A DNA stretch of 12,436 bases, from assembly GCA_018882485.1 (NCBI GenBank), contig VERU01000031.1, forward strand, positions 1 to 12,436, written 5' to 3'. Under the pieces are notes generated by a model that worked only from the letters and a program-made list of their open reading frames with translations, searched no databases and was not told where the DNA came from. Positions 1 to 12,436 of the stretch are shown here, in pieces. The position numbers and the translations under genes were made by a program. Source of the DNA: Rhodoferax sp. Lineage in GTDB: Bacteria > Pseudomonadota > Gammaproteobacteria > Burkholderiales > Burkholderiaceae_C. Within the stretch, counting starts at the first letter, position 1; every line of letters begins with the position of its first letter.

Positions 1-295
1 GCTCAAACACGCCGGTGCCATCTTCCTGGGCGCCTACACCAGCGAGAGCCTGGGCGACTACTGCGCCGGCCCCAACCATGTGCTGCCCACCAGCGGCACC
101 GCCCGCTTCAGCTCGCCGCTGGGGGTCTATGACTTTCAGAAGCGCAGCAGCCTGATCGAGGTCAGCCCCGCCGGCGCCCTGGTGCTGGGCCCGATTGCCG
201 CCGAACTGGCCTATGGCGAGGGGCTGCAGGCCCATGCGCGGGCCGCCGAGCTGCGGCTGGAGCCGGTGCCTGAACCCGGGAATCCGATGCCATGA
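1..295 (+). CDS. hisD: Histidinol dehydrogenase, C-terminal part (5' end outside window)
   Basis: HisD catalyses the last two steps of histidine synthesis, the NAD-dependent oxidation of histidinol to histidine, in the cytoplasm with one zinc ion. Only the last 97 codons are present; the first whole codon starts at base 2. The segment [20 protein letters not shown] is the highly conserved HisD signature; its first Asp corresponds to a zinc ligand (Asp360 in the E. coli enzyme). The His in the late [10 protein letters not shown] segment fits the C-terminal zinc ligand (His419 in E. coli). The stop codon TGA (293-295) overlaps the hisC start in an ATGA arrangement, which indicates translational coupling in the his operon. 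Identification is secure, but nothing can be said of the missing N-terminal part. Confidence 0.97.
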
Positions 296-1368
296 GGCCC
301 GACCCCTTGCGCGTGTTCCGGCAGGATGTGCAGGGCATGCACGCCTACGCCATCCAGGACTCGGTGGGCATGGTCAAGCTCGACGCCATGGAAAATCCCT
401 TCCCGCTGCCACCGGCGCTGCAGTCCGCGCTCGGGCAGCGCCTGGGTGCGCTGGCCGTCAACCGCTATCCCGGCGCCCGCGTGGCCGACCTGCAGGCGGC
501 GCTGGCGCGGCATGCCGGCCTGCCGGCCGGCTGTGCGCTCATGCTGGGCAATGGCTCGGACGAGTTGATCAGCCTGCTGGCACTGGCCTGCGCGCGGCCC
601 GGCGCCAGTGTGCTGGCGCCGGTTCCCGGTTTCGTGATGTACGCCATGAGCGCCCAGCTGCAGGGTCTGGCGTTCCACGGCGTGCCCTTGACGCCCGATT
701 TCCGGCTGGACGAACCCGCCATGCTGGCCGCCATCGCGCTGCACCGGCCCGCCATCACCTACCTGGCCTACCCCAACAACCCCACCGCCAACCTGTGGGA
801 CGAGGCGGTGATCGAGCGCCTGATCCAGGCCGTGGGCGAGCAGGGTGGCCTGGTGGTGATGGACGAGGCCTACCAGCCGTTTGCCAGCCGCAGCTTCATT
901 GGCCAGCTGGGCCAGCACGACCATCTGTTGTTGATGCGTACCCTCTCCAAGTTCGGATTGGCGGGCGTGCGGCTGGGCTACCTGATGGGGCCGCAGCCGC
1001 TGATCGGCCAGATCGACAAGGTGCGACCGCCCTATAACATCAGCGTGCTCAATGGCGAATGCGCCCTGTTTGCGCTCGAACATGAGGCGGTTTTTGCGGC
1101 TCAAGCCCTTGAAATACGGGCACAGCGCGCTATGCTTTTGGAAGCATTGGCCCCGCTCCCCGGCGTGCGGGTCTTCCCCAGCGAAGCCAACATGATCCTG
1201 CTGCGTGTACCCGACGCCGCCGCCACCTTCGACGCGCTCAAGCGCCGTCGCATACTGGTCAAGAATGTGTCCGCCCTGCACCCCTTGCTGGCCAACTGCC
1301 TGCGCCTGACCGTCGGCACACCCGACGAAAACCGCCTGCTGCTCACCGCCCTGGAGGAATCCCTATGA
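292..1368 (+). CDS. hisC: Histidinol-phosphate aminotransferase
   Basis: This PLP-dependent fold-type I aminotransferase converts imidazole-acetol phosphate plus glutamate to histidinol phosphate and 2-oxoglutarate. The 358-residue length is normal. Visible landmarks are NGSDE (87-91, cofactor phosphate region), YPNNPT (160-165), DEAY (191-194, Asp for the pyridine nitrogen and Tyr for the PLP oxygen), and [12 protein letters not shown], in which Lys220 should be the Schiff-base lysine. The ATG overlaps the hisD stop (ATGA), with GGGAA about 10 bases upstream. It ends in an ATGA overlap with hisB. Residues 271-285 are encoded by an AT-leaning patch (1103-1146) that belongs to a repeat family also present at 8087 and 10245; by eye, the patch replaces rather than lengthens the usual HisC sequence. 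The product needs PLP, whose precursor is made by PdxA later in the window. Confidence 0.97.
1103..1146 (+). repeat. Interspersed repeat, copy 1 (inside hisC)
   Basis: CCCTTG (1106-1111), GCTA (1129-1132) and AGCA (1143-1146) occur with the same offsets (0, 23, 37) as in the copies at 8087 and 10245, with no gaps across 44 bases. Weaker similarity extends upstream to about 1091 (T-rich, then GC before the block). The expected 3' stem (GCTAT/ATAGC in copy 3) is degenerate here, with GCTT-N4-AAGC instead. It encodes HisC residues 271-285. Confidence 0.6.
1353..1358 (+). promoter_or_regulatory. Shine-Dalgarno site for hisB
   Basis: GGAGGA lies 6 bases before the hisB ATG at 1365, inside the last hisC codons. 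It is one of the best ribosome sites in the window and fixes the hisB start despite the overlap with hisC. Confidence 0.8.
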
Positions 1369-1985
1369 CCCTGGTCCCCCCCTCCGAACCGGTCGCACCC
1401 CGCGCCGCCGAGGTGTCGCGCATCACGGCCGAGACCCGGATCACGGTCCGCCTTAACCTGGACGGCACCGGTCAGGCGCGGCTGCACACCGGCATCGGAT
1501 TCTTCGACCACATGCTCGACCAGATTGCGCGGCACGGCCTGATCGATCTTGACATCCAGGCCGAGGGCGATCTGCACATCGACGGCCACCACACGGTCGA
1601 AGACGTAGGCATCACGCTGGGCCAGGCGGTGCACCGTGCGGTGGGCGACAAGGCCGGCATCCGGCGCTACGGCCATGCCTATGTGCCGCTGGACGAGGCG
1701 CTGTCGCGCGTGGTGGTCGATTTTTCCGGGCGGCCCGGCCTGGTCATGAACGTGCCCTTCAAGAGCGGCATGATCGGCACCTTCGACAGCCAGCTCGCGC
1801 ACGAGTTCTTCCAGGGTTTTGTCAACCACGCGTTCGTGACGCTGCACATCGACAACCTGCGCGGCGAGAACGCCCACCACCAGGCCGAGACCGTGTTCAA
1901 GGCCTTTGCCCGGGCCCTGCGGGCCGCCCTGGAGCACGACCCCCGAGCGCCGGCCACCATTCCTTCCACCAAAGGCAGCCTGTGA
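1365..1985 (+). CDS. hisB: Imidazoleglycerol-phosphate dehydratase (monofunctional)
   Basis: HisB dehydrates imidazole-glycerol phosphate to imidazole-acetol phosphate, the substrate of HisC. The 206-residue length is that of the monofunctional dehydratase; there is no N-terminal histidinol-phosphatase domain as in the E. coli fusion, so the phosphatase must be encoded elsewhere. Manganese-binding histidine motifs are clear: [13 protein letters not shown] (47-58 region), DGHHTVED (73-80), [12 protein letters not shown] (145-156) and [20 protein letters not shown] (167-186). Its start overlaps the hisC stop and its stop overlaps the hisH GTG start (GTGA). The first 15 or so residues, rich in Pro and Ala, are variable in the family, but the strong ribosome site supports the ATG chosen. 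Confidence 0.97.
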
Positions 1986-2638
1986 GCACCGTGGCCGTGG
2001 TCGACTACGGCATGGGCAACCTGCGCTCGGTATCGCAGGCCCTGCAAGCCGTGGCGTCGGACACCGGCCACCATGTGCGGGTGACCTCCCGCCCCGACGA
2101 GGTGCGCGCCGCTGAACGGGTGGTGCTGCCCGGGCAGGGCGCCATGCCCGACTGCATGCGCGAGCTGAGGGCGTCGGGCCTGTTGCAGGCGGTACTGGAG
2201 GCGGCCCGCAGCAAACCCCTGTTCGGGGTCTGCATCGGCATGCAGATGCTGCTGGACCACAGCGCTGAAGGCGACACCCCGGGCCTGGGTCTGATGGCCG
2301 GCGAGGTCCGCCGTTTCGAACTGGCCGGCCGGCTGCAGCCCGACGGCAGCCGGTTCAAGGTGCCGCAGATGGGCTGGAACACGGTGCGCCGCACCGGCAC
2401 GGCGGGAGAGGCCCATCCGGTCTGGGGCGCCATCCCCGATGGCAGCCACTTCTACTTCGTTCACAGCTACCACGCCCGACCGTCTGATGCGCACCACACT
2501 GCCGGCGAGACCGACTACGGCCAGGTCTTCAGTTCGGTCATTGCGCGCGATAATATTTTCGCGACCCAATTCCATCCCGAGAAAAGTGCGATTCACGGCT
2601 TGTCCCTGTTCCGGAACTTTTTGCATTGGAACCCCTGA
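1982..2638 (+). CDS. hisH: Imidazole glycerol phosphate synthase, glutaminase subunit
   Basis: HisH is a class I glutamine amidotransferase that passes ammonia to HisF in the IGP synthase heterodimer. The start is GTG at 1982, overlapping the hisB stop; the N-terminus [16 protein letters not shown] matches the family. The nucleophile is Cys84 in [10 protein letters not shown], and the rest of the triad is His198 and Glu200 in ATQFHPEKS. The 218-residue length is normal. The stretch encoding [13 protein letters not shown] (about 2546-2590) uses several AT-rich codons (GAT AAT ATT) and contains a promoter-like GATAAT at 2549. After the stop, 67 bases (2639-2705) separate it from hisA; that gap is C-rich and shows no ORF, hairpin or T-run that I can support. 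Confidence 0.97.
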
Positions 2639-2705
2639 GGCTGTGTCGGCGGTCCCCGCGACCGTTGCCTGCCCGATCTCCCCTCCCACCAGCTGCTGAC
2701 CCTCC

Positions 2706-3446
2706 ATGCTGCTGATACCTGCGATCGACCTGAAAGACGGTCAGTGTGTCCGCCTGAAGCAGGGCGACATGGATCAGGCCACCACCTTTGGCCTGGACCC
2801 GGCGCAGATGGCGCGCAACTGGGTGGATCGCGGCGCCCGGCGGCTCCACCTGGTCGACCTGAACGGTGCTTTTGCAGGGCATCCCAAGAACGAGATGGCC
2901 ATCCGCAAGGTGCTGCGTGACGTGGGCAGCGAGGTGGATGTGCAACTGGGGGGCGGCATCCGCGATCTCGACACCATCGAGCGCTACCTCGACGCCGGGC
3001 TGCGTTACGTCATCATCGGCACGGCTGCGGTCAAGAACCCCGGTTTCCTGCAGGACGCCTGCACCGCCTTTGGCGGTCACATCATCGTCGGCCTGGACGC
3101 CCGCGATGGCAAGGTGGCCACCGACGGCTGGAGCAAGCTCACCCGCCACGATGTCGTCGACCTGGGCAAGAAGTTCGAGGACTACGGCGTCGAATCCATC
3201 ATCTACACCGACATCGGCCGCGATGGCATGCTGACCGGCATCAATGTGGAGGCCACGGTCAAGCTGGCGCAGGCGCTCTCCATCCCGGTCATCGCATCGG
3301 GTGGCCTGGGTGGCATGGGCGACATCGAAGCCCTGTGTGCGGTGGAAGACGAAGGCATCGAGGGCGTGATCTGCGGTCGGGCCATCTACAGCGGCGAACT
3401 GGACTTCTCGGCGGCTCAAAGCCGTGCCGACGAGCTCTCGCGCTAG
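2706..3446 (+). CDS. hisA: Phosphoribosylformimino-5-aminoimidazole carboxamide ribotide (ProFAR) isomerase
   Basis: HisA is a (beta/alpha)8-barrel isomerase catalysing the Amadori rearrangement of ProFAR to PRFAR, the substrate of HisF-HisH. The N-terminus [20 protein letters not shown] is canonical and sets the ATG start. The two catalytic acids are Asp8 and Asp131 (in [14 protein letters not shown]). LGGGIRD (81-87) and IASGGLGG near the C-terminus form the phosphate-binding loops. The length of 246 residues is normal. No purine-rich ribosome site is visible; the preceding 20 bases are C/T-rich, which is odd for a gene separated from its upstream neighbour. hisF follows 4 bases after the stop. 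Confidence 0.97.
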
Positions 3447-3450
3447 CCGC

Positions 3451-4230
3451 ATGCTGGCCAAGCGCATCATTCCCTGCCTCGATGTGACCGGAGGCCGGGT
3501 GGTCAAGGGGGTCCACTTCGTCGGGCTGCGCGACGCCGGCGATCCGGTCGAGATCGCGGCCCGCTACAACGAACAGGGTGCCGACGAACTCACCTTTCTG
3601 GACATCACGGCCACCAGCGACAACCGCGACCTGATCCTGCACATCGTCGAGGCGGTGGCGTCCCGGGTGTTCATCCCGCTGACGGTGGGCGGTGGCGTGC
3701 GCACGGTCGATGATGTGCGCCGCCTGCTCAACGCCGGGGCCGACAAGACCAGCTTCAATTCGGCCGCGATTGCCAACCCGGCCGTGATCCGGGAGGCCTC
3801 GCAGCGCTACGGCGCCCAGTGCATCGTGGTGGCCATCGACGCCAAGCGGCGCTACGGTGACGACCTGCTTGCCCGGGGCGAAGGCTGGGATGTGTACAGC
3901 CACGGCGGTCGCCGCAACACCGGGCTTGACGCCCTGACCTGGGCCCGGCGCATGGCCGCCGAAGGCGCTGGCGAAATCCTGCTCACCAGCATGGACCGGG
4001 ATGGCACCAAGGCCGGCTTCGACCTCGCACTCACCCGCGTCATCAGCGATGCGGTCGAGGTGCCGGTCATCGCGTCAGGGGGAGTGGGCACGCTGGACCA
4101 TCTGGCCGACGGCATCCAGCTGGGCGGCGCGGATGCGGTGCTGGCGGCCAGCATTTTCCATTTCGGCGAGTTCACCGTGGGCCAGGCCAAGACCCGCATG
4201 GCCGAACGCGGCATTCCCGTGCGCACCTGA
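3451..4230 (+). CDS. hisF: Imidazole glycerol phosphate synthase, cyclase subunit
   Basis: HisF condenses PRFAR with ammonia delivered by HisH, giving imidazole-glycerol phosphate and AICAR. It is a barrel paralogue of HisA. The 259-residue protein begins [20 protein letters not shown], which fixes the ATG at 3451; an in-frame GTG at 3424 lies inside hisA and would only add nine residues foreign to the family. Catalytic Asp11 and Asp130 (VVAIDAKRR) are present, with phosphate loops TVGGGVRT (about 78-85) and IASGGVGT. It starts 4 bases after the hisA stop without an obvious ribosome site, so translational coupling is likely. It ends only 9 bases from the 3' end of the oppositely oriented FAS1 gene, leaving no room for a conventional terminator. 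Confidence 0.97.
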
Positions 4231-4239
4231 CGCCCCTGC

Positions 4240-4779
4240 TCATGCCACCATGTTCTGCGGCAGCAGGACGCGGTCGATCACATGGATCACCCCATTGGAG
4301 GCCAGCAGGTCGCTGCGGGTGATGTGGGCCTGGCGCAGCAGCCGGTCGGTCAACCGGGCGCCCTCCAGCAGCCGGACCGGTTCGCCCTGCAGGGTGGGCA
4401 GGTCCTGATCCAGCGGCAGTTCCGCCTGCAGACGTCGCTGGGCCAGCAGGTGGTATTTCAGCACCCGCGTGAGCAGCTCGGTGGCGGCCAGCAATTCGTC
4501 CGCGCGCACACCCAGTTCGCCCTGCAGCAGCACAAAGGCCTCGTTGGTGGGCGCGAAGACGGTCAGCGCTTCGGCCTGGGCCACGCTGTCCTGCAAGGCG
4601 CTGGCGTTCAGCGCCTGCACCAGCGTGGACAGGTCCGGATCGGCCTGCAGCTGGGCCGCCAGGTTGGGCGGCGCCGGCGTGGGGTCGGTGGCGCTGCTGC
4701 TGCTGCCGCCGCCGCAGGCCGGCAGCAGGCCGGCCGCGCCCAGACCCAGAACCGTGAGGACGTGTCGTCGAATCATCAT
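4240..4779 (-). CDS. FAS1 (fasciclin) domain lipoprotein, probable Tat-type signal
   Basis: This is a predicted envelope protein with one FAS1 domain, a fold linked to adhesion; its substrate or partner is unknown. With the start at 4779 it has 179 residues. The N-terminus MMIRRHVLTVLGLGAAGLLPAC combines a twin arginine (4-5), a hydrophobic core and a lipobox (LPAC, lipidated Cys22), so a Tat-exported lipoprotein is plausible. A Gly/Ser/Pro linker follows (about 23-38), its GGGSSSS encoded by short trinucleotide runs at 4693-4713. The FAS1 H1 box is LTVFAPTNEAF (72-82) and the H2 region is SNGVIHVIDRVLLP (161-174). A longer reading from 4806 is possible, but GGAG at 4787-4790 favours 4779. 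The gene lies antisense between hisF and hisI and breaks the his cluster. FAS1 identity is firm; the role is not known. Confidence 0.88.
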   Translation of the reverse strand: MMIRRHVLTVLGLGAAGLLPACGGGSSSSATDPTPAPPNLAAQLQADPDLSTLVQALNASALQDSVAQAEALTVFAPTNEAFVLLQGELGVRADELLAATELLTRVLKYHLLAQRRLQAELPLDQDLPTLQGEPVRLLEGARLTDRLLRQAHITRSDLLASNGVIHVIDRVLLPQNMVA

Positions 4780-4786
4780 CTTTGAA

Positions 4787-4790
4787 CTCC
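4787..4790 (-). promoter_or_regulatory. Shine-Dalgarno site that decides the FAS1 gene start
   Basis: On the minus strand AGGGAG precedes tandem ATG codons (4779 and 4776) by about 7 bases. The site lies inside the longer frame from 4806, so it argues for the shorter product with the signal peptide at its very N-terminus. Confidence 0.6.
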
Positions 4791-4818
4791 CTGAATTCGG
4801 TGCCAATCACCACCGGTC

Positions 4819-4846
4819 ATTCTGGTCAGGGCGATGGATCTGGCAA
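4819..4846 (-). promoter_or_regulatory. Candidate sigma-70 promoter for the FAS1 gene
   Basis: Read on the minus strand, TTGCCA (4846-4841, 5 of 6 matches to the -35 consensus) and CAGAAT (4824-4819, 4 of 6 to the -10) are separated by 16 bases. Transcription would begin near 4812 and leave a leader of about 33 bases before the ATG at 4779. This is a by-eye match in a 150-base divergent region and could be chance. Confidence 0.35.
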
Positions 4847-4908
4847 TACCGCTTTCCGGGTGACAGGTGCGGTGTTTTGCGGCGGGTCAAGCCCCGCCTG
4901 GCCGATGC

Positions 4909-4925
4909 CAATCGGTCACAATCGG
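4909..4925 (+). repeat. CAATCGG direct repeat in front of hisI
   Basis: CAATCGG occurs at 4909-4915 and again at 4919-4925, exactly 10 bases apart, that is, on the same face of the helix. The first copy also forms the right arm of CCGAT-N4-ATCGG (4902-4915). TGCCAATC occurs at 4801-4808 and 4906-4913 in the same spacer. These could be operator sites for hisI or the divergent FAS1 gene, or chance. Confidence 0.3.
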
Positions 4926-4929
4926 GTCC

Positions 4930-5319
4930 ATGAGTTGGATCGATGACGTTCGCTGGGACGCCCAGGGACTGGTGCCCGCGATTGCCCAGGAATGGGCCAG
5001 CGGCGATGTGCTGATGCTGGCCTGGATGAACCGCGAGGCCCTGCAGGCCACGGTGGACAGCGGCCAGGCGGTGTACTACAGCCGGTCGCGTGGGCGCCTG
5101 TGGCCCAAGGGCGAGGCCTCGGGCCATGTGCAGCGGGTGCATGAAATCCGGCTGGATTGCGACCAGGATGTGCTGCTGCTCAAGGTCACCCAGCTCGGTC
5201 ACGAGCCGGGCATCGCCTGCCACACCGGGCGCCACAGCTGTTTTTATTCCGTGTACGAAAATGGTGTCTGGCGGGTGCTCGATCCGGTCTTGAAAGACCC
5301 GTCCACCATCTACACCTGA
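4930..5319 (+). CDS. hisI: Phosphoribosyl-AMP cyclohydrolase
   Basis: HisI opens the adenine ring of phosphoribosyl-AMP to give ProFAR, the substrate of HisA. The 129-residue protein is the stand-alone cyclohydrolase, not an HisIE fusion. Magnesium-binding acids are in LDCDQD (Asp76, 78, 80), and the zinc cysteines are Cys77, Cys97 and Cys104 ([11 protein letters not shown]). The [20 protein letters not shown] stretch (49-68) is diagnostic. The frame is open upstream to an ATG at 4867, but family alignment supports [10 protein letters not shown] at 4930. No Shine-Dalgarno is visible, and a -10-like CACAAT (4917-4922) lies only 7 bases before the ATG, so a very short leader or a leaderless message is possible. 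Because the antisense FAS1 gene separates it from hisF, hisI probably has its own promoter. Confidence 0.96.
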
Positions 5320-5326
5320 TAGGGCC

Positions 5327-5704
5327 ATGCCTGCACCCGATACCCTGGAGCGCCTCGCGGCCGTGATCGAAAGCCGTCTGCCCGTCCACGGAGGCGATCC
5401 GTCGACCAGTTACGTGGCGCGTCTGCTGCAGCGCGGACCGGACGCCTTCCTGAAGAAAATCGGCGAGGAAGCCACCGAGGTCGTGATGGCTGCCAAAGAC
5501 ACCGACCACGGCGGAGATCGTCAGCGGCTGGTCGGCGAAGTGGCCGACCTGTGGTTCCATTGCCTGGTGGCGCTGGCCCATTACGGCCTCCGGCCCGCCG
5601 ATGTGCTGGCCGAGTTGGAGCGGCGCGAGGGAACCAGCGGCATCGAGGAGAAAGCGCTGCGCAAGGCGGGTGTCCGTGAGGCCGAGGAGGGGCTGAGGTC
5701 ATGA
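5327..5704 (+). CDS. hisE: Phosphoribosyl-ATP pyrophosphatase
   Basis: HisE removes pyrophosphate from phosphoribosyl-ATP to give the HisI substrate, so pathway steps two and three are encoded side by side. It is an all-alpha MazG-like enzyme. The magnesium-binding helices are recognisable: [18 protein letters not shown] (41-58, Glu47, 48 and 51) and [16 protein letters not shown] (68-83, Glu71 and Asp74). The length of 125 residues is within the family range. It starts 7 bases after the hisI stop with a short AGGG before the ATG. Its stop overlaps the next gene in ATGA fashion. Confidence 0.95.
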
Positions 5705-6069
5705 CGGATGTGCAGCTTGCCCATGGTGGTGGCAAGACGGCCGAGCAGCTGGCCAGCCTGCGGCAGATCACGCTGGTGGTCTACGCGCTGTACGCCCTCT
5801 CGTGGGTGACCGGCATCACGGCGCTGGTGGCCATCATCATCAATTACGTCAAACGCGATGACGCCCGCGGCACGCTCTACGAGAGCCACTTCACCTGGCA
5901 GATCCGCACCTTCTGGTGGAGCCTGGCCTGGACGCTTCTGGGTGTCCTCACGATGTTCATCCTGGTCGGCTTCCTGATCATGGGGATCACCGCCGTCTGG
6001 TCCATCTACCGGCTGGTTCGCGGCTGGCTCAACTGGAACGACCACAAACCCATGCCGGTGTCGACATGA
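5701..6069 (+). CDS. Small DUF4870-like inner-membrane protein
   Basis: This 122-residue protein has a charged N-terminus, a hydrophobic span at about 24-50, a soluble loop carrying [14 protein letters not shown] (60-73), and a second hydrophobic region at about 72-106 that could hold two spans. The conserved His and the Arg-Thr-Phe-Trp element fit the DUF4870 family, whose function is unknown. The start overlaps the hisE stop and the stop overlaps the HIT gene start, both as ATGA, so it is co-translated with a histidine enzyme and a nucleotide hydrolase. The upstream sequence is AG-rich (GAGG at 5695-5698). The family assignment rests on my recognition of the pattern, without a profile search. 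Confidence 0.8.
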
Positions 6070-6434
6070 ATCCTCCCGCATCGCCCCCCGACTGCCTGTT
6101 CTGCAAAATTGCCGCCGGCCTGATACCCAGCCGCAAGGTGTACGAGGACCACGAGATCCTCGCCTTTCACGACATCCACCCCTGGGCGCCGGTGCACTTT
6201 CTGATGATCCCCAAGGCCCACATCGCATCCCTGGCGCAGCTGGAGCCGGGCCACGCTGCGCTCATGGGTCGCATGATGGTGCTGGTGCCGCAACTGGCCT
6301 TGCAGGCCGGTTGCCAGCCGTACCCGGAGGGCGGTTTCCGGGTGCTGAGCAACATCGGAGCCCATGGACATCAGGAGATCCACCACCTGCACATCCATGT
6401 GATGGGAGGGCCGCGCCCCTGGCTGCGCGGCTGA
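6066..6434 (+). CDS. HIT-family nucleotide-binding protein (HinT-like)
   Basis: This is a histidine-triad protein; HinT-type members hydrolyse adenosine phosphoramidates and related acyl- or aminoacyl-adenylates in the cytoplasm. The 122-residue product begins [18 protein letters not shown], with the family's CxxC (Cys10, Cys13), and ends with the HxHxHxx triad HHLHIHVMGG (His107, 109, 111; the central one is the expected nucleophile). The frame is open upstream into the DUF4870-like gene, but this ATG at 6066 gives the normal HinT N-terminus. It overlaps the previous stop by 4 bases. It is the last gene of the tightly overlapping hisI-hisE-DUF4870-HIT block; tatA follows after 53 bases. Family is certain; the exact substrate is not. 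Confidence 0.94.
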   Translation: MNPPASPPDCLFCKIAAGLIPSRKVYEDHEILAFHDIHPWAPVHFLMIPKAHIASLAQLEPGHAALMGRMMVLVPQLALQAGCQPYPEGGFRVLSNIGAHGHQEIHHLHIHVMGGPRPWLRG

Positions 6435-6457
6435 ATGCGCCCGCGGCGTGCGGCGAC

Positions 6458-6463
6458 TAGAAT
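6458..6463 (+). promoter_or_regulatory. Candidate -10 element upstream of tatA
   Basis: TAGAAT (5 of 6 matches to TATAAT) sits 24 bases before the tatA ATG in an otherwise very GC-rich gap. No convincing -35 hexamer is found 16-18 bases upstream. It could give tatABC its own transcript in addition to read-through from hisI. Confidence 0.35.
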
Positions 6464-6487
6464 TTCACCGGTTTACTGGAGATCACA

Positions 6488-6733
6488 ATGGGCTCGTTTT
6501 CGATTTGGCATTGGTTGGTGGTGCTGCTGATCGTCGTGATGGTGTTCGGCACGAAAAAGCTGAAGAACCTGGGCAGCGACCTGGGGGGTGCCGTCAAGGG
6601 CTTCAAGGACGGCATGAAAGAGGGCGGCGGCGCCGCCGACGACAAGTCCGCGGCCACGCCGCCGACGCAGGTGACTGCGGCCACCCCGGCCGACAAGACC
6701 ACCATCGACGTCGAGGCCAAGCACAAGTCCTGA
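6488..6733 (+). CDS. tatA: Sec-independent protein translocase subunit TatA
   Basis: TatA forms the size-variable pore or membrane-weakening ring that moves folded proteins across the inner membrane. The 81-residue protein has a short membrane helix (about 5-20), the hinge FGTKKL (20-25), an amphipathic helix (about 25-45, [20 protein letters not shown]) and a Pro/Ala/Thr/Lys-rich, probably disordered tail. GGAG at 6478-6481 precedes the ATG by 6 bases. tatB follows after 28 bases. The F-G pair at the hinge is diagnostic of the TatA/B family, and the second position and short tail favour TatA over TatB. Confidence 0.95.
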
Positions 6734-6761
6734 GCGTGGTCTCCACGGGTCTTCGGCGCGC

Positions 6762-7217
6762 ATGATCGATCTCGGCATCTCCAAGCTCGCGCTGATCGGC
6801 GCCGTGGCGCTGGTCGTGATCGGTCCCGAAAAGCTCCCCCGGGTGGCGCGCACGGTCGGCACGCTGCTGGGCAAGGCCCAGCGCTATGTCGCGGACGTCA
6901 AGGCCGAGGTCAACCGGTCGATGGACCTGGAAGAACTCCGCAAGATGAAGGACACGGTGGAGAGCGCCTCGCGCGAGGTGGAGACCGCGATCCAGACCCA
7001 GGCCAGCGATTTCGAGAAGTCCTGGGCCGAGGCCACGAGCACGGCGGCCGCGCTGGAACAGCCGGCCTCGCACCCGGCTTACCGCCACCCCGGCAAGAAG
7101 TGGCGCATCAAGCAGGGCGCCGTTCCCGGGTGGTACAAGGCCCGGGCCGGCGTGCGCAGCAAGGCCCTGTCGGGCGCAGCGCGGGTGGCCCGCTTTCGTC
7201 CCCCGCCCTCCCACTGA
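6762..7217 (+). CDS. tatB: Sec-independent protein translocase subunit TatB
   Basis: TatB binds TatC to make the signal-peptide receptor complex. The 151-residue protein starts with the TatB signature [21 protein letters not shown] and then PEKLPRVAR: one membrane helix (about 5-21), the Gly-Pro hinge (21-22), and a long amphipathic helix running to about residue 90. The C-terminus (about 112-151) is basic and rich in Arg, Lys and Pro ([19 protein letters not shown]), longer than needed for a minimal TatB; I have seen such tails in Burkholderiales TatB but know no function. There is no clear ribosome site before the ATG. A 66-base gap without recognisable features separates it from tatC. Confidence 0.94.
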
Positions 7218-7283
7218 ATGGGCGGCCCGCGATTCCCGACACGGGGCTGCCGGGACGCACTTCGCCCTGAACACGACTGACCC

Positions 7284-8072
7284 ATGGCCGACACCCCCTC
7301 CAAGGACGACGAACTCGCCGGCACCGAGCAGCCCTTTGTGCAGCACCTCATGGAGTTGCGTGATCGCCTGCTCTATTGCATCTACGGGCTGATGCTGGCG
7401 GTCGCGGTGCTGGCTTTCTGGCCGGGTCCGAACGGCTTGATCGACTTCATCGCCCGTCCGATCCGGGCCCACATGCCGCCCGACGCCAAACTGATCGCCG
7501 TGGGCGTTTTTTCGCCGTTTTTCGTTCCGCTCAAGGTGTTGGTGCTGGTTGCCGTGCTGCTGACCCTGCCCTGGCTGATGTACCAGATCTGGATGTTCAT
7601 TGCCCCGGGCCTGTACCGCCATGAGCGCCTGTTTGCCCTGCCGCTGATCGTTTTCGGCAGCCTGCTGGCGTACGCCGGCATCGCCTTTGTTCAGTTTTTT
7701 GTGCTGGACAAGATGTTCGCCTTCATCCAGGGTTTCACGCCGGCCAGCGTGGCGGCCACGCCCGACATCGCGTCCTACGTCGAGGCCATCCTCTCCCTGT
7801 ACCTGGCGTTCGGGGTGGCTTTCCAGGTGCCCATCGTGGTGATGCTGCTGGTGCGCCTGAACATGGTGACCATCGCCAAGCTCAAAAGCTTTCGCGGCTA
7901 TTTCATCGTGGTGGCCTTTGTGGTGGCCGCCGTCGTCACCCCGCCCGACGTGCTCTCGCAGGTGGCGCTCGCGGTGCCGATGTGCATTCTTTACGAGGTC
8001 GGTATCCTGGCGGCCGGGTGGTACGCCCGCGGCAAGCCCGCCGACGCCGAGCAGGAACCGAAAGAAACCTGA
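7284..8072 (+). CDS. tatC: Sec-independent protein translocase subunit TatC
   Basis: TatC is the six-span membrane receptor for twin-arginine signal peptides. Over 262 residues the protein shows the N-terminal HLMELRDRLLY (21-31), which carries the conserved Glu of the signal-binding site, the cytoplasmic loop PGLYRHER (108-115) with the second key Glu114, and TPPDVLSQ (219-226) before the last helix. Hydrophobic spans lie at about 29-46, 78-105, 116-140, 165-190, 205-219 and 222-245. The C-terminal tail is short and acidic. The gene ends 76 bases from the convergent protease gene; that gap contains one copy of the interspersed repeat. Confidence 0.97.
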   Translation: MADTPSKDDELAGTEQPFVQHLMELRDRLLYCIYGLMLAVAVLAFWPGPNGLIDFIARPIRAHMPPDAKLIAVGVFSPFFVPLKVLVLVAVLLTLPWLMYQIWMFIAPGLYRHERLFALPLIVFGSLLAYAGIAFVQFFVLDKMFAFIQGFTPASVAATPDIASYVEAILSLYLAFGVAFQVPIVVMLLVRLNMVTIAKLKSFRGYFIVVAFVVAAVVTPPDVLSQVALAVPMCILYEVGILAAGWYARGKPADAEQEPKET

Positions 8073-8086
8073 TCGAAATCAGGCAC

Positions 8087-8130
8087 CAGCCCTTGCTGGA
8101 TAACGATTTTCAGCTACCGATCTTGTAGCA
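8087..8130 (+). repeat. Interspersed repeat, copy 2 (between tatC and protease gene)
   Basis: This is the only intergenic copy. CCCTTG (8090-8095), GCTA (8113-8116) and AGCA (8127-8130) keep the same spacing as the two genic copies. A perfect small hairpin GCTAC-N7-GTAGC lies at 8113-8129. Similarity extends upstream to about 8074. It fills most of the 76-base gap between two convergent genes, where a hairpin could end transcription from either side, although no T-run follows. Confidence 0.65.
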
Positions 8131-8148
8131 CTTGCTAGACGGTCGCGG

Positions 8149-9291
8149 TCAGCGCTGGACCGCTTTGGGTGGTGGCCTCTGACCCGGCGTGACCTGCAAC
8201 TTCACCACCTGATCGCGGCGCTGCAGCACCACGCCAGCCGCTTGCCCGGGTTGCAGCGCGGCGACCTGGGCCAGCAGTTCCGCCACGTTGCGCACCTCTT
8301 TTCCGGCCACGGCCGTGATCACGTCACCTGGCCGGATGCCCGCCTGTGCGGCCGGCCCGTTCTGCAGCACGCCGGTGATGATCACGCCGGCCGAGGCCTT
8401 GACCCCGAAGGTTTCGGCCAGTTCCGGCGTCAGTTCGTTGGGCTCCACCCCGATCCAGCCCCGCATCACGCGGCCGTCGCGCACGATGCCCTCCATCACC
8501 TGGCGAGCGGTCGAGACCGGTATCGCGAAACCGATGCCCAGACTGCCTCCGGAGCGGGAATAGATGGCGGTGTTGATGCCCAACAGGTTGCCGGCGGTGT
8601 CTACCAGCGCCCCGCCCGAGTTGCCAGGATTGATCGCGGCATCGGTCTGGATGAAGTTTTCGAAGGTGTTGATGCCCAGCTGGTTGCGTCCCAGCGCGCT
8701 CACGATGCCGCCCGTCACCGTCTGACCCACGCCAAACGGGTTGCCGATGGCCAGCACCTGATCGCCCACCCGCAGGTTGTCGGAGTTGCCCAGCACCACC
8801 ATTGGCAGGCGGTCGAGGTCGATCTTCAGAACCGCCAGATCGGTGTCGGGATCGGTCCCGATGACCTTGGCCCGGCTGCGACGGCTGTCGTTGAGCACCA
8901 CCTCGATGTCGTCGGCCCCCTCGACCACATGGTTGTTGGTCAGGATGTATCCGGTGCTGCTCACGATCACGCCGCTGCCCAGTCCGACCTGAGGCTCACT
9001 GCCCTGGTCGCCATAGAAGAACTTGAACCAGGGGTCGTCGCTGTGGGGGTTGCGCCGTGCGGCCTTGCTGGTGTTGATGCTGACCACGGCGGCCGAGGCC
9101 TTGGCCGCCGCCTGGCGGAAACTGCCCGCCGGCAGGGCGCCGGGTTCGGACGCAGGCGCCTCCAGCAGGGCGATCGGGCCGTTGCGCAAGCCCCGCGGGC
9201 CCAGCCATTCGGGTTTGAGGGTCAGCACCACGAAGTAGGCGGCCAGCAGGACCGTCACAGCTTGGGAAAACAGGAGCCAGTAGCGTTTCAT
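8149..9291 (-). CDS. Membrane-anchored DegS/AlgW-type serine protease with one PDZ domain
   Basis: This HtrA-family protease is anchored in the inner membrane with its active domain in the periplasm. Known relatives DegS and AlgW sense misfolded outer-membrane proteins and cleave an anti-sigma factor; that role is inferred here. The 380-residue protein has an uncleaved-looking N-terminal hydrophobic span (about 5-24), a chymotrypsin-like domain with the triad His121 (TNNHVVEG), Asp151 (DTDLAVLK) and Ser225 (NPGNSGGAL), and a single PDZ domain (about 278-368) with GVIITGVLQNGPAAQAGIRP. One PDZ and a membrane anchor separate it from two-PDZ DegP/DegQ. It is convergent with tatC and divergent from the cysteine-rich gene. 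The start codon has only a weak ribosome site. No sigma-E or anti-sigma gene is in the window. Confidence 0.93.
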   Translation of the reverse strand: MKRYWLLFSQAVTVLLAAYFVVLTLKPEWLGPRGLRNGPIALLEAPASEPGALPAGSFRQAAAKASAAVVSINTSKAARRNPHSDDPWFKFFYGDQGSEPQVGLGSGVIVSSTGYILTNNHVVEGADDIEVVLNDSRRSRAKVIGTDPDTDLAVLKIDLDRLPMVVLGNSDNLRVGDQVLAIGNPFGVGQTVTGGIVSALGRNQLGINTFENFIQTDAAINPGNSGGALVDTAGNLLGINTAIYSRSGGSLGIGFAIPVSTARQVMEGIVRDGRVMRGWIGVEPNELTPELAETFGVKASAGVIITGVLQNGPAAQAGIRPGDVITAVAGKEVRNVAELLAQVAALQPGQAAGVVLQRRDQVVKLQVTPGQRPPPKAVQR

Positions 9292-9360
9292 CCGTCGGCG
9301 ATCGGTACAGGGGGTGGGGGCGGTCCGCGTGGATGGCGGACAGCGCGGGGGCGCGGCGAA

Positions 9361-9366
9361 ATTGTA
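9361..9366 (-). promoter_or_regulatory. Candidate -10 element for the DegS-type protease gene
   Basis: Minus-strand TACAAT (5 of 6 matches to TATAAT) lies about 70 bases upstream of the protease start in the divergent 125-base spacer. No good -35 hexamer is seen at the usual distance. The leader would be about 60 bases. Confidence 0.35.
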
Positions 9367-9416
9367 GGCCTTGCACCACCGGGAGCTGTGTCTCGGCGGT
9401 AAAGTGGGGGTCTGCC

Positions 9417-9773
9417 ATGCCCTCCGCCGCCCGAGTCATCGCCATCCAGCCCCTGGCGCCGTCCAAGCCCGCCTGGGGCGCGGCCTGCAACGGCTGCGGC
9501 CTGTGCTGTCTCTTCGAGCCCTGTCCGTTGGGCATGGTGCTCTCCCGCCGCCGTCGCGGGGCCTGTGTCGCCCTGCGCTGGCTGGAGACCGAGCGGCGCG
9601 ACCGCTGCGGGGCGCTCGCCCAGCCCGACCGGGTGCTGGGCGAGGTGCTTCCATCGAGGCTGCGCCCTGTCGCGGGTCGGCTGGCCCCGGCCTTGCGCCG
9701 TTGGGCCCAGCGCTGGATCGCCCCGGGCATCGGCTGCGACAGCCACCTCAGCGCCACTCGGACCCCGCCATGA
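9417..9773 (+). CDS. Small cysteine-rich protein (CxxCxxCC cluster), function unknown
   Basis: The product has 118 residues and eight cysteines, at 24, 27, 30, 31, 36, 50, 64 and 107. The first five form a CNGCGLCCLFEPC cluster that resembles the CxxCxxCC zinc- or iron-chelating motif of YkgJ-type proteins; the rest is rich in Arg and Ala and has no membrane span. The pattern suggests a metal or iron-sulfur site. The frame is open back to 9333, but the ATG at 9417 has a G-run (9406-9410) in front and begins just before the conserved-looking part. Its stop overlaps the nif3 start (ATGA), so it is co-translated with a metal-binding protein. I cannot name it, and the YkgJ link is only a motif resemblance. 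Confidence 0.75.
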   Translation: MPSAARVIAIQPLAPSKPAWGAACNGCGLCCLFEPCPLGMVLSRRRRGACVALRWLETERRDRCGALAQPDRVLGEVLPSRLRPVAGRLAPALRRWAQRWIAPGIGCDSHLSATRTPP

Positions 9774-10525
9774 CCGATCGCCAGCAGCTCTTGCACACCC
9801 TGAACGGACTGCTGCAGCCCGAGCGGTTTCGAGACCACGGTCCGAATGGCCTGCAGGTCGAGGGCCGGGCCTCGGTGCACCGCCTGGTATCGGGCGTGAC
9901 GGCCAGCCTGGCCCTGATCGAAGCCGCCGTGGCCTGGCGGGCCGACGCCATCCTGGTGCACCATGGCCTGTTCTGGCGTGGCCAGGACGGCTGCGTGACC
10001 GGCTGGATGCGGCAGCGGCTGGCCCGTTTGCTGGCCCACGACATCAACCTGTTTGCCTATCATCTGCCGCTGGACGCGCACCCCGTATGGGGCAACAACG
10101 TGCAGCTCGGCCACCGCCTGGGATTGCAGGCCGAGCGCCGTTTCGGCGATCAGGATCTGGGCCTGCTGGGGCGTCTCACCTCGGGCGCCACGGTGGCTGC
10201 AGCCGATCTGGCACAGCACCTGGAATTGTGCCTGAATCGGCCTGTAACCCTTGTGTATCAAGGAGATCGCGCTATTCAAAACATAGCATGGTGCAGCGGC
10301 GGTGCACAGGGCTACTTCGAGGCGGCGATGGCCGCAGGCGCCGATGCCTACATCACTGGCGAGATCTCCGAGCCCCAGGCCCACTTGGCACGAGAGTGCG
10401 GCGTGGCCTATCTGGCCTGCGGCCACCATGCCAGCGAGCGCTATGGTGCGCCGGCCCTGGGCGAGCATCTGGCCGGGTTGCTGGGGCTGGAGCACCGGTA
10501 CATCGAGATCGACAACCCGGCCTGA
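9770..10525 (+). CDS. Nif3-family dinuclear metal centre protein
   Basis: Nif3/YbgI proteins form hexameric toroids with a two-metal site and are often called GTP cyclohydrolase I type 2-like; the biological role is not settled. The 251-residue protein carries the expected ligands: His64-His65 (LVHHGLFW), His98 and Asp102 (AYHLPLDAH), and His219-His220 with Glu223 (ACGHHASE). DHGPNGLQVEG (22-32) and CSGGAQGYFEAAMAAGADAYITGE (about 175-198) are family hallmarks. The chosen ATG overlaps the stop of the cysteine-rich gene. Residues 159-173 are encoded by a copy of the interspersed repeat with little apparent damage to the protein. The stop TGA is part of the pdxA ribosome site. Confidence 0.94.
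   Translation: MTDRQQLLHTLNGLLQPERFRDHGPNGLQVEGRASVHRLVSGVTASLALIEAAVAWRADAILVHHGLFWRGQDGCVTGWMRQRLARLLAHDINLFAYHLPLDAHPVWGNNVQLGHRLGLQAERRFGDQDLGLLGRLTSGATVAAADLAQHLELCLNRPVTLVYQGDRAIQNIAWCSGGAQGYFEAAMAAGADAYITGEISEPQAHLARECGVAYLACGHHASERYGAPALGEHLAGLLGLEHRYIEIDNPA
10245..10288 (+). repeat. Interspersed repeat, copy 3 (inside nif3)
   Basis: CCCTTG (10248-10253), GCTA (10271-10274) and AGCA (10285-10288) match the other copies in order and spacing. A perfect hairpin GCTAT-N7-ATAGC lies at 10271-10287, at the same place as the copy 2 hairpin. It encodes Nif3 residues 159-173 with many AT-ending codons in an otherwise GC-rich gene. Confidence 0.6.
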
Positions 10526-10534
10526 GGACGTCCC

Positions 10535-11590
10535 ATGGCTGCACCCATCGCCATCACGCTCGGCGATCCCGCTGGCATCGGGCCGGAAATCATCGCCCGG
10601 GCCTGGATGCAGGACCCCCAGGCGCTTCGCGGTTGCGTGATCGCCGGCGATGTGGCGGCGCTGCAACGCGCCCAGAACCAGGTGGCCCGGGGCGCAGCCG
10701 TTGGGCCGCTGGCCCTGCTGACATCGTTGACGGAGCTACCGGCACTGCCGCCCCGTTGCCTGCCGGTGCTGCAGGTGGCCCGGCCCGGACCTCTGGTGAC
10801 GCAGGGCGTGGTGAGTCCGCGAGGCGGGCAGGTTGCAGCCGATTGCGTGCTGTGGGCGGCGCAGGCCGCCCTGCGGGGTGAGGTTGCCGCACTGGTCACG
10901 GCGCCCTTGCACAAGGAGGCTCTGGCTTTGGCGGGGCCGCCAGCGGACGGTTTTCCCGGCCACACCGAACTGCTGCAGCATCTGGCGGCCCGGTACCTGG
11001 GTCGGGAATGCGCGGAGTTGCCGGTGCGCATGATGCTGGCCAACGACGAACTGCGGGTCGTGCTGGTCAGCATCCACCTGTCGTTGCGCGAGGCGCTGGA
11101 CGCGGTGACCCGGCCGCAGGTGCTGGAGACCTTACGCATCGCCCACCGCTCGCTGTCTGCCATGCTGGGCCGTGCCCCCCGGCTGGCGGTGGCCGGTCTC
11201 AACCCTCATGCGGGCGAGGGGGGTCGTTTCGGCCGGGAGGAACTGGAGGTGATCGCCCCGGCGATCGCCGCCGCCCGTGAGGAAGGCATCTCTGCCCAAG
11301 GGCCTTTCCCGCCCGACACGGTGTTCATGCGGGCCCGAGCCCAGGCACGGGCCGCCCAGGCCGACGGCTGCGATGCGGTGATCGCCATGTACCACGATCA
11401 GGGGCTGATCCCGCTCAAGTACCTGGGGGTCGAGCAGGGGGTCAACGTCACCCTCGGGCTGCCGCTGGTGCGCACCAGCCCGGATCACGTAACCGCCTTC
11501 GACATTGCGGGTACCGGCCAGGCCGACCCGTCCAGCCTGCTGGCCGCGGTCCGTGTGGCGCGGACCCTCAGCGCCGCAGACTGTCCCTGA
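10535..11590 (+). CDS. pdxA: 4-hydroxythreonine-4-phosphate dehydrogenase
   Basis: PdxA oxidises 4-phosphohydroxy-L-threonine in the DXP-dependent route to pyridoxal phosphate; the product is joined with deoxyxylulose phosphate by PdxJ. The 351-residue protein shows [10 protein letters not shown] (10-19), TAPLHKEAL (122-130) and GHTELLQHL (142-150). The metal-binding histidines are His181 (SIHLSLREA), His225 ([12 protein letters not shown]) and His287 ([13 protein letters not shown]). The C-terminal [22 protein letters not shown] is canonical. GAGGA (10524-10528), 6 bases before the ATG, overlaps the nif3 stop and supports the start. The last 23 bases overlap the 3' end of mscL on the other strand. 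Confidence 0.97.
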
Positions 11591-11999
11591 TCTCGCGCAG
11601 CAACAGCACGTCCTCGGGGGTGGGTGCCGGCGCGGGTGCGGGCGGCGGCGGCGCCGAGCGCTTGAGGCGGTTGATCTGCTTGACCATCATGAAGATGATG
11701 AACGCCAGGATCGTGAAATTGACGGCCACCGTGATGAAGCTGCCGTAGGCAAACACCGGCACCCCGGCCTTTTTCATGGCATCCAGGGTGCTGGCGGTGC
11801 CGGCCGGCACCTGGCCGAGCACCAGGTACAGGTTGGAGAAGTCAAGCTTGCCAAACACCAGCCCGACCACCGGCATGATCAGATCGGCCACCACCGAATC
11901 CACGATCTTGCCGAATGCGCCGCCGATGATGACGCCCACGGCGAGGTCGACCACGTTGCCTTTGACGGCAAATTCCCTGAATTCCTGCAACACACTCAC
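11568..11999 (-). CDS. mscL: Large-conductance mechanosensitive channel
   Basis: MscL is a homopentameric inner-membrane channel that opens under membrane tension to release solutes on osmotic downshock. The 143-residue protein starts [21 protein letters not shown] after an initiating GTG and continues with [21 protein letters not shown] (first span), a periplasmic loop, a second span [21 protein letters not shown], a Pro/Ala linker and the C-terminal helix [15 protein letters not shown]. Minus-strand GGAG at 12011-12008, 8 bases before the GTG, supports that start. The stop lies inside the end of pdxA (tail-to-tail overlap of 23 bases), and the start is 155 bases from petA, with which it is divergent. 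Confidence 0.97.
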
Positions 12000-12007
12000 G
12001 GTCGTGT

Positions 12008-12011
12008 CTCC
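12008..12011 (-). promoter_or_regulatory. Shine-Dalgarno site supporting the mscL GTG start
   Basis: Minus-strand GGAG lies 8 bases before the GTG at 11999. Together with the canonical N-terminal sequence it makes a GTG start more likely than any internal ATG. Confidence 0.6.
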
Positions 12012-12105
12012 AAAGCGATGAGGGGCCGTCAGTATCTCCCAGAATGCCCGCGAGCCGGTCGTCCGGCGGGCCCGGGCGGTGCCAGGGCGCCCGCAGGGCC
12101 TCAGT

Positions 12106-12111
12106 TACAAT
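12106..12111 (+). promoter_or_regulatory. Candidate -10 element for petA
   Basis: TACAAT (5 of 6 matches) lies 43 bases before the petA ATG, directly after a GC-rich stretch. No convincing -35 is present at 16-18 bases. Transcription would start near 12118, with a leader of about 37 bases. Confidence 0.4.
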
Positions 12112-12144
12112 CAAGAGCTGTTGCGCGAAGCGAAGTTTTTCATT

Positions 12145-12149
12145 GAGGA
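12145..12149 (+). promoter_or_regulatory. Shine-Dalgarno site for petA
   Basis: GAGGA stands 5 bases before the ATG at 12155 and fixes the start of the Rieske protein. Confidence 0.65.
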
Positions 12150-12154
12150 TTCCC

Positions 12155-12436
12155 ATGAGTGAGAGCCTTGTCGAGCAGGGTCAGGTCGATGCCGCCAAAA
12201 GAACCTGGCTGATTGCGTCGAGCTGCGCGGGCGTGGCCGGTGGCGTGGCCGCCGTCGTTCCCTTTGTGAGCAGTTTCCAGCCGTCCGAGCGGGCCCGGGC
12301 CGCCGGCGCAGCGGTGGAGGCCGATATCTCGGGTCTCAAGCCCGGAGAAAAAATGGTGGTGGAGTGGCGCGGCAAGCCGGTCTGGATCGTGCGCCGCACT
12401 CCGGAACAGCTGGCCGTGCTGCCGCAACTCAACGCC
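12155..12436 (+). CDS. petA: Ubiquinol-cytochrome c reductase Rieske iron-sulfur subunit, N-terminal part (3' end outside window)
   Basis: PetA carries the 2Fe-2S Rieske cluster of the cytochrome bc1 complex and is held in the inner membrane by its uncleaved N-terminal helix, with the cluster domain in the periplasm. The first 94 codons are present. The N-terminus has a short acidic leader, the Tat-like motif AKRTWLIAS (residues 14-22), a hydrophobic span to about residue 38 (GVAGGVAAVVPFV), the hinge region FQPSERARAAGAAVEADISG, and the start of the periplasmic domain with GEKMVVEWRGKPVWIVRRT. The cluster-binding CTHLGC and CPCHGS boxes would lie beyond the edge, so the cluster cannot be confirmed here. 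The Tat motif has Lys-Arg in place of Arg-Arg. Cytochrome b and c1 genes are expected next. Confidence 0.94.
   Translation, partial: MSESLVEQGQVDAAKRTWLIASSCAGVAGGVAAVVPFVSSFQPSERARAAGAAVEADISGLKPGEKMVVEWRGKPVWIVRRTPEQLAVLPQLNA

Follow-up and report, generated by a model that had tools for sequence, protein, structure and literature searches.

A dispersed repeat of about 70 bp in Rhodoferax and related genera as a candidate DNA uptake sequence of Comamonadaceae with species dialects

To our knowledge, uptake sequences have been described only in Neisseriaceae and Pasteurellaceae. In Neisseriaceae, the DNA uptake sequences (DUS) are searched for as 10-mers, with thousands of copies per genome, found also inside genes, and their species-wide dialects are described as barriers to transformation (PMC3630211). 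The uptake signal sequences (USS) of Pasteurellaceae combine a core with AT-rich segments, arise by point mutation and not by insertion, and are attributed to a molecular drive made of biased uptake and recombination; they are scarcer in coding and newly acquired DNA, and the preferred motif differs among lineages (PMC7811141). Here, we analyzed a repeat present in three copies in a stretch of 12,436 nucleotides from Rhodoferax sp. (contig VERU01000031.1 of assembly GCA_018882485.1, positions 1 to 12,436; hereafter, the window), and compared it with these systems using the genome of origin, other genomes of the genus, the family Comamonadaceae and the order.

Like DUS, this repeat has many chromosomal copies, is spelled in species-wide dialects and is also found inside genes; unlike them, it is about 70 bp long and numbers several hundred copies (PMC3630211). 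The two sequences look unrelated by eye. With USS it shares a core plus AT-rich segments, in-place point evolution, scarcity in coding DNA and different preferred motifs between lineages, and it differs from them in density (about 70-130 copies per Mb in motif-bearing genomes versus about 1000 per Mb), in a sequence that by eye is unrelated and in the bacterial family that carries it (PMC7811141). Because in-place point change and species spellings match the known behavior of uptake tags, we consider that these repeats are probably a Comamonadaceae DNA uptake sequence that is spelled in species dialects and maintained through biased uptake together with recombination. The nearest published repeat that we found was BRE, of about 90 bp, which likewise occurs in Polaromonas, Rhodoferax, Acidovorax and Delftia and has some intragenic copies; in Bordetella it has a mean GC content of 69% and forms tandem arrays, unlike the motif, which is dispersed and less GC-rich than its genome (PMC3110155). 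The two are set apart by this description of GC content and tandem organization only. As to distribution, a search of 24 other families of the order, each represented by a single genome, did not find the exact form of the motif.

The three copies lie on the plus strand of the window at 1081..1151 (CCCTTG at 1106), 8065..8135 (CCCTTG at 8090) and 10223..10293 (CCCTTG at 10248). The identical internal spacing that the first-pass annotation had attributed to them was confirmed in the sequence. Its offsets of 0, 23 and 37 for the conserved blocks hold if CCCTTG, beginning at base 4 of the 44-base stretches then delimited, is taken as the origin; the repeat is real, and those 44 bases were too short, since the element spans about 70 bp, from -25 to +45 around CCCTTG. 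Copy 1 is located within a gene that we take to be hisC from its place in the his run, copy 3 within a DUF34/NIF3 gene, and copy 2 between convergent tatC and protease genes; thus, two of the three copies are intragenic. When the window was scored with a matrix built from 29 copies, all of them from other genomes in the genus, the copies reached 35.9, 38.8 and 33.2 bits, respectively. The best score in the rest of the window was -13.8 bits on the plus strand and -9.7 bits on the minus strand, and the reversed controls gave a top score of -4.9 bits. The description of the copies as AT-leaning islands in GC-rich DNA was also borne out: the 71-bp sites had GC contents of 0.55, 0.48 and 0.46, in comparison with 0.672 for the window, placing them at the 4.9th, 0.5th and 0.2nd percentile among all window 71-mers.

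The exact pattern CCCTTG-N17-GCTA-N10-AGCA was found in excess in the genome of origin (3.20 Mb in 645 contigs, 86% complete), with 15 matches and none for the reversed pattern. When 150 of the 861 first-look candidates were scored with a profile built from 14 own copies, at least 147 passed E ≤ 1, a number that includes the 14 copies used for training. In a sample of 248.6 kb, which comprised 20 stretches of hit-bearing contigs plus the window and is therefore biased in density, 23 sites scored above 30 bits, and the control gave none. The search was also conducted in a relative, G106, with a matrix refined on 400 kb of this genome and a site threshold of 30 bits: 41 sites were detected, three more fell below 30 bits and were excluded from the counts, and the reversed sequence had no site. 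These numbers indicate a genuine genome-wide repeat family. The first 400 kb of another genome, G035, contained no exact seed, yet 33 sites were found there with the genus matrix and none in its control.

Among the other genomes of the genus, 20 of 35 contained the exact pattern, and it was found in none of 24 genomes from other families of the order, with one genome analyzed per family. In the family sample, 76 of 299 genomes were positive, the genome of origin included; the reversed control produced 13 single matches, so lone matches in this sample may be due to chance. We then used a dialect-general pattern, AGYCC-N20-GCTAY-N8-DAGCR, which was present in 101 of the 299 genomes and had at least 10 matches in 50 of them, with a maximum of 434 per genome; the reversed control gave no more than 2 in each of those 50. 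The highest control count was 15, in G119, a genome with a high chance level and one true match. Both strands were used nearly equally (225/209 and 170/149 with the dialect-general pattern). Collectively, this is a strong chromosomal over-representation on both strands, as expected of DUS and USS. A stringent pattern matched at least 120 stretches of named genome contigs, and among the 80 matches listed, 47 were from Polaromonas, the others including Rhodoferax, Curvibacter, Acidovorax, Paracidovorax, Diaphorobacter, Comamonas granuli, Ramlibacter and Hylemonella. A bin from a metagenome, with the name Sulfuriferula, was the one listed match assigned outside the family, and several sequences had higher-rank names only. 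The mention, in the first pass, of similar repeats in Comamonadaceae genomes holds.

Next, we compared the intragenic copies with their orthologous loci within the genus. For hisC, 40 genomes were searched, 30 loci were obtained, and the alignment was gapless across the 29 rows covering the site. For the NIF3 gene, 35 of the 40 genomes searched had a match and 30 were aligned, with no gap at the site in any of the 30 loci. Because of these gapless alignments, copies 1 and 3 are not insertions, and the motif appears and disappears at these places by substitution. In some NIF3 relatives, high-GC codons encode a similar peptide and the motif is missing, and in others the motif is present. The NIF3 site scored above 20 bits in 16 of 30 genomes, the hisC site in 9 of 29, our own included in both cases. 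Moreover, excluding our own genome, the site score correlated with the count of exact patterns in the respective genome, both for NIF3 (Spearman 0.71, p = 2e-5, n = 28) and for hisC (Spearman 0.51, p = 0.008, n = 26). When the NIF3 site was recoded in 1000 random synonymous draws following the gene's own codon use, the observed score was matched by at most 0.1% of the draws for 15 of the 16 genomes that score above 20 bits, and by 0.9% for the remaining one.

The dialects were analyzed site by site in one species pair, G106 and G222, the latter being the sole other genome of the genus of G106 in our sample; the aligned flanks of the two were 86.1% identical. Both flanks of a G106 site were found in the compared stretch of G222 for 24 of the 41 sites, and 17 had no flank match there. 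The distance between flanks, 70 bp in G106, was 56-106 bp at 21 of the 24 G222 loci (69-70 bp at 11 of them) and over 1 kb at three, and near each of the 24 loci the best motif score was at least 28 bits. Pairing by synteny was possible for 26 of the 41 G106 sites, and two that shared an already used G222 site were dropped, leaving 24 pairs. The same places are spelled AGCCC in G106 and AGTCC in G222. At position 0, C was found in 22 of the 24 G106 sites, and G222 had T at 20 of those 22; in the flanks, a C was read as T in G222 in only 4.0% of cases (p = 2e-26 versus motif position 0). Ten of the 24 pairs were in called genes, and these were seven C-T, two T-T and one C-C. Fifteen core columns, chosen post hoc after the alignment was seen, were 96% identical between the pairs, and the remaining columns 62%. 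In agreement, G222 had 4 matches with the CCCTTG pattern versus 304 with the dialect-general pattern. The middle block also varies elsewhere, e.g., CTGCTCAAGCAGC in G094. Hence, these two related species differ in genome-wide dialects, as is known for DUS, and the motif changes in place by point mutation, as reported for USS, in hisC, in NIF3 and at the 24 G106/G222 pairs.

The distribution of the sites relative to genes was also analyzed. The 23 sites in the sample of the genome of origin were 11 coding, 10 intergenic and 2 at a gene edge, and 89.7% of that sequence was marked as coding by a simple gene caller, indicating that sites are enriched between genes, with many coding copies too. The 41 sites of G106 included 16 coding, 10 intergenic and 15 lying across a gene edge. 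Their spacing was more even than random (coefficient of variation 0.72 vs. 0.97, P = 0.018; one genome tested). A replication polarity suspected on contig 1 of G106 was dropped, as sites occur on both strands there (24/17 over the 400 kb). Allowing up to one mismatch, six Polaromonas and Rhodoferax plasmids (1.67 Mb) gave no match and their control one, and eight named genomes (about 38.6 Mb) gave 967 matches and 11 in the reversed control, a contrast weakened by the chromosomes of the plasmid hosts lying outside the count and by the eight genomes having been picked because they had hits. With the stringent pattern, one viral contig of IMG/VR was matched. This sole viral match (L315:999-1039, minus strand) falls in an acetyltransferase-like open reading frame (ORF), toward its N-terminal end, beside phage-type genes, the gene functions on this contig having been read by eye from the ORFs.

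The refined G106 motif extends from about -25 to +45 around CCCTTG and holds 46 bits. Its conserved blocks are TTT near -22, AAA near -12 and AGCCC at -2 to 2 in the 5' part, and GG-CAC at 12 to 17, GCTAT at 23 to 27, AAA at 30 to 32 and TAGCA at 36 to 40 in the 3' part. The G106 sites have a GC content of 0.51, versus 0.67 for the G106 stretch. In the matrices of G106, G222, G035 and the named loci, the information recurs about every 12.5 bp, and not every 10.5 bp as in the DNA helix. This periodicity exceeded that of column shuffles in four of five sets (p ≤ 0.008; p = 0.098 for the own-genome set), in a test that is too generous because shuffling splits blocks of adjacent columns.

As to how such sequences would be maintained, a predicted type IV pilus or competence receptor would prefer DNA carrying the motif of about 70 bp. 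Imported DNA would recombine into the chromosome, and alleles nearer to the preference of the receptor would replace others. This drive would build and keep the motif in place through point changes between genes, and within genes the motif would be kept by codon choice where the protein tolerates it. If the preference of the receptor shifts, the sites of the genome would shift along, generating dialects. We infer that biased uptake is the driver, a pilin-type receptor the reader, and the dialects species barriers. A further step, which we offer tentatively and with slightly less than even confidence, is that this may be a third independent code for self-recognition in uptake, in the form of a comb of about 70 bp with some six blocks about 12.5 bp apart, whose dialects would wall species off; the comb might be read by repeated contacts of an oligomeric or filamentous receptor. 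In the same family, Verminephrobacter eiseniae is reported to show type-IV-pilus-dependent, sequence-specific DNA uptake and transformation, and A. temperans to have given transformants solely when the donor DNA was conspecific; in the consulted part of that paper, no sequence motif is given for the V. eiseniae specificity (PMC4212676).

Several observations weigh against a DNA uptake sequence, besides the composition of the plasmid comparison. The A. temperans result may reflect recombination barriers instead, and the genomes of both this species and Verminephrobacter were outside the motif search. ComEC has no discriminating value, since motif-rich and motif-poor genomes alike carry it (49 of 49). 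The density is roughly tenfold under that of Haemophilus-type USS (PMC7811141), and a motif of 42-46 bits over 70 bp greatly exceeds known uptake sequences in length; the rise of new sites through point mutation alone is hard to see. The agreement between single sites and whole genomes is also incomplete: hisC lacks a good motif in G004, G035 and G019, which have 14, 21 and 27 exact matches genome-wide, and the NIF3 site of G008 scores 43.4 bits, yet this genome has no exact copy. Directly after tatC, the site of copy 2 was found in four of 30 genus genomes, namely our own, G030, G032 and, in a weaker form, G010, with scores of 52.4, 47.3, 38.8 (own) and 23.7 bits among the four bearers. The other 26, including the motif-rich G035, G019, G004 and G341, lack it (≤ -5.3 bits), and insertion or loss is possible at this intergenic place. 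Finally, the Y1_Tnp gene, encoding a transposase of the REP (repetitive extragenic palindromic) type, is commoner in motif-rich genomes.

This last point bears on an origin as a mobile repeat of the REP or MITE (miniature inverted-repeat transposable element) type, moved by a host Y1_Tnp transposase similar to the REP-associated tyrosine transposases (RAYT). The gene was found in all 20 motif-rich genomes searched, compared with 21 of 29 without CCCTTG copies, mostly as a single copy, and the intergenic enrichment and the presence of the tatC site in only four of 30 genomes fit mobility too. REP/RAYT systems are likewise dispersed and enriched between genes, and many motif genomes contain a Y1_Tnp gene, in most cases only one; the GTAG preceding CCCTTG in some genomes may also resemble the REP tetranucleotide. 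Unlike those systems, the motif evolved in place inside two genes, and the Y1_Tnp gene is not consistently flanked by it. The nearest site of at least 15 bits lay 57 bp from Y1_Tnp in one of 15 neighborhoods and 323-325 bp away in three, so that the check for a REP-associated transposase found the motif no farther than 325 bp from the gene in just 4 of 15; the distance was about 1-4.6 kb in ten, and our own contig (4 kb) had no site. The REP/MITE-like element considered at first is refuted for the hisC and NIF3 copies, which are gapless in relatives and not insertions, and between G106 and G222 the sites keep their positions, the differences being substitutions. With this evidence, a mobile repeat appears very unlikely. 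The Y1_Tnp gene itself was present in 41 of the 49 genomes searched (loci L382-L396). In 8 of 10 of its neighborhoods (L384-L389, L392 and L394), one motif site is located 5488-5598 bp from it, and the recurrence of this site at about 5.5 kb in genomes of four genera is a sign of long positional persistence.

Of the options that the first-pass annotation had left open, a recombination or protein-binding site fits best. A rival to the uptake sequence would be the binding site of a chromosome-organizing or segregation protein, selected at several hundred places per genome. A long, fairly evenly spaced motif with a 3' inverted repeat, which is absent from six plasmids, matched in one viral contig only, kept at common positions in G106 and G222 and also carried in coding DNA, speaks for such a site. 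Unlike the expectation for an essential system, 15 of the 35 other genus genomes have no exact copy, some of which may be hidden by dialects, and no strand polarity was seen. In addition, weak selection acting site by site would hardly produce a one-base difference at 20 of 22 orthologous sites, which drive would produce more readily. We regard this protein-site explanation as improbable, with a better standing than transposition. An RNA element, i.e., a terminator, attenuator or small RNA, seems less probable still and close to dismissal. The hairpin-like GCTAY-N7-RTAGC, as had been noted, forms an inverted repeat in copies 2 and 3, and some copies stand directly 3' of stop codons. Its variable pairs, 26/36 and 27/35, showed no covariation over 282 distinct sites collected with those columns masked (p = 0.56 and 0.07, and at least 0.05 in every single set), and the consensus fold of 14 copies contained three base pairs, all invariant. 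In an alternative stem, CCCTTG-N5-CAAGGG, the pair 0/16 beat all 2000 shuffles in the pooled set, a signal that we attribute to pooled dialects (T-A pairs 28, C-G 169, C-A 55); the other five pairs of this stem gave nothing, and the slid control pair 28/35 also reached p = 0.0015. Moreover, the window had no Rfam match at gathering score, and the coding copies of our own sample are on both strands, with 5 of 11 on the strand of the gene.

In the open-licence literature, we found no described Comamonadaceae uptake motif and no paper pairing 'DNA uptake sequence' with Comamonadaceae. The same term together with Acidovorax gave PMC4212676 as the sole paper on the family by title, and together with Burkholderiales only Neisseria work by title. 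If the repeat is indeed an uptake sequence, a third family would have them, and biased uptake would evolve repeatedly; the motif could also supply the missing sequence behind the Verminephrobacter and Acidovorax specificity, and related species with different dialects would make the receptor findable by co-variation. Whatever its function, a drive-like process is needed to explain a motif of several hundred copies that is spelled differently in place in two related genomes.

With regard to the genes around the copies in the window, the host of copy 1 is an aminotransferase gene of the hisC type at 292..1368 on the plus strand (PF00155, E = 2.3e-45). The tatC gene upstream of copy 2 is at 7284..8072 on the plus strand (PF00902, E = 1.5e-57), and convergent with it, at 8149..9291 on the minus strand, there is a gene for a trypsin-PDZ protease of the DegP/DegQ type (PF13365 plus PDZ domains). 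The DUF34/NIF3 gene hosting copy 3 is at 9770..10525 on the plus strand (PF01784, E = 5.9e-63), and it is preceded by a short cysteine-rich ORF (CNGCGLCC...) at 9333-9773 on the plus strand, with no Pfam match. A gene for a fasciclin-domain protein (PF02469) is located at 4240-4806 on the minus strand, opposite to and inside an apparent histidine-biosynthesis run whose gene names we presume by recognition.

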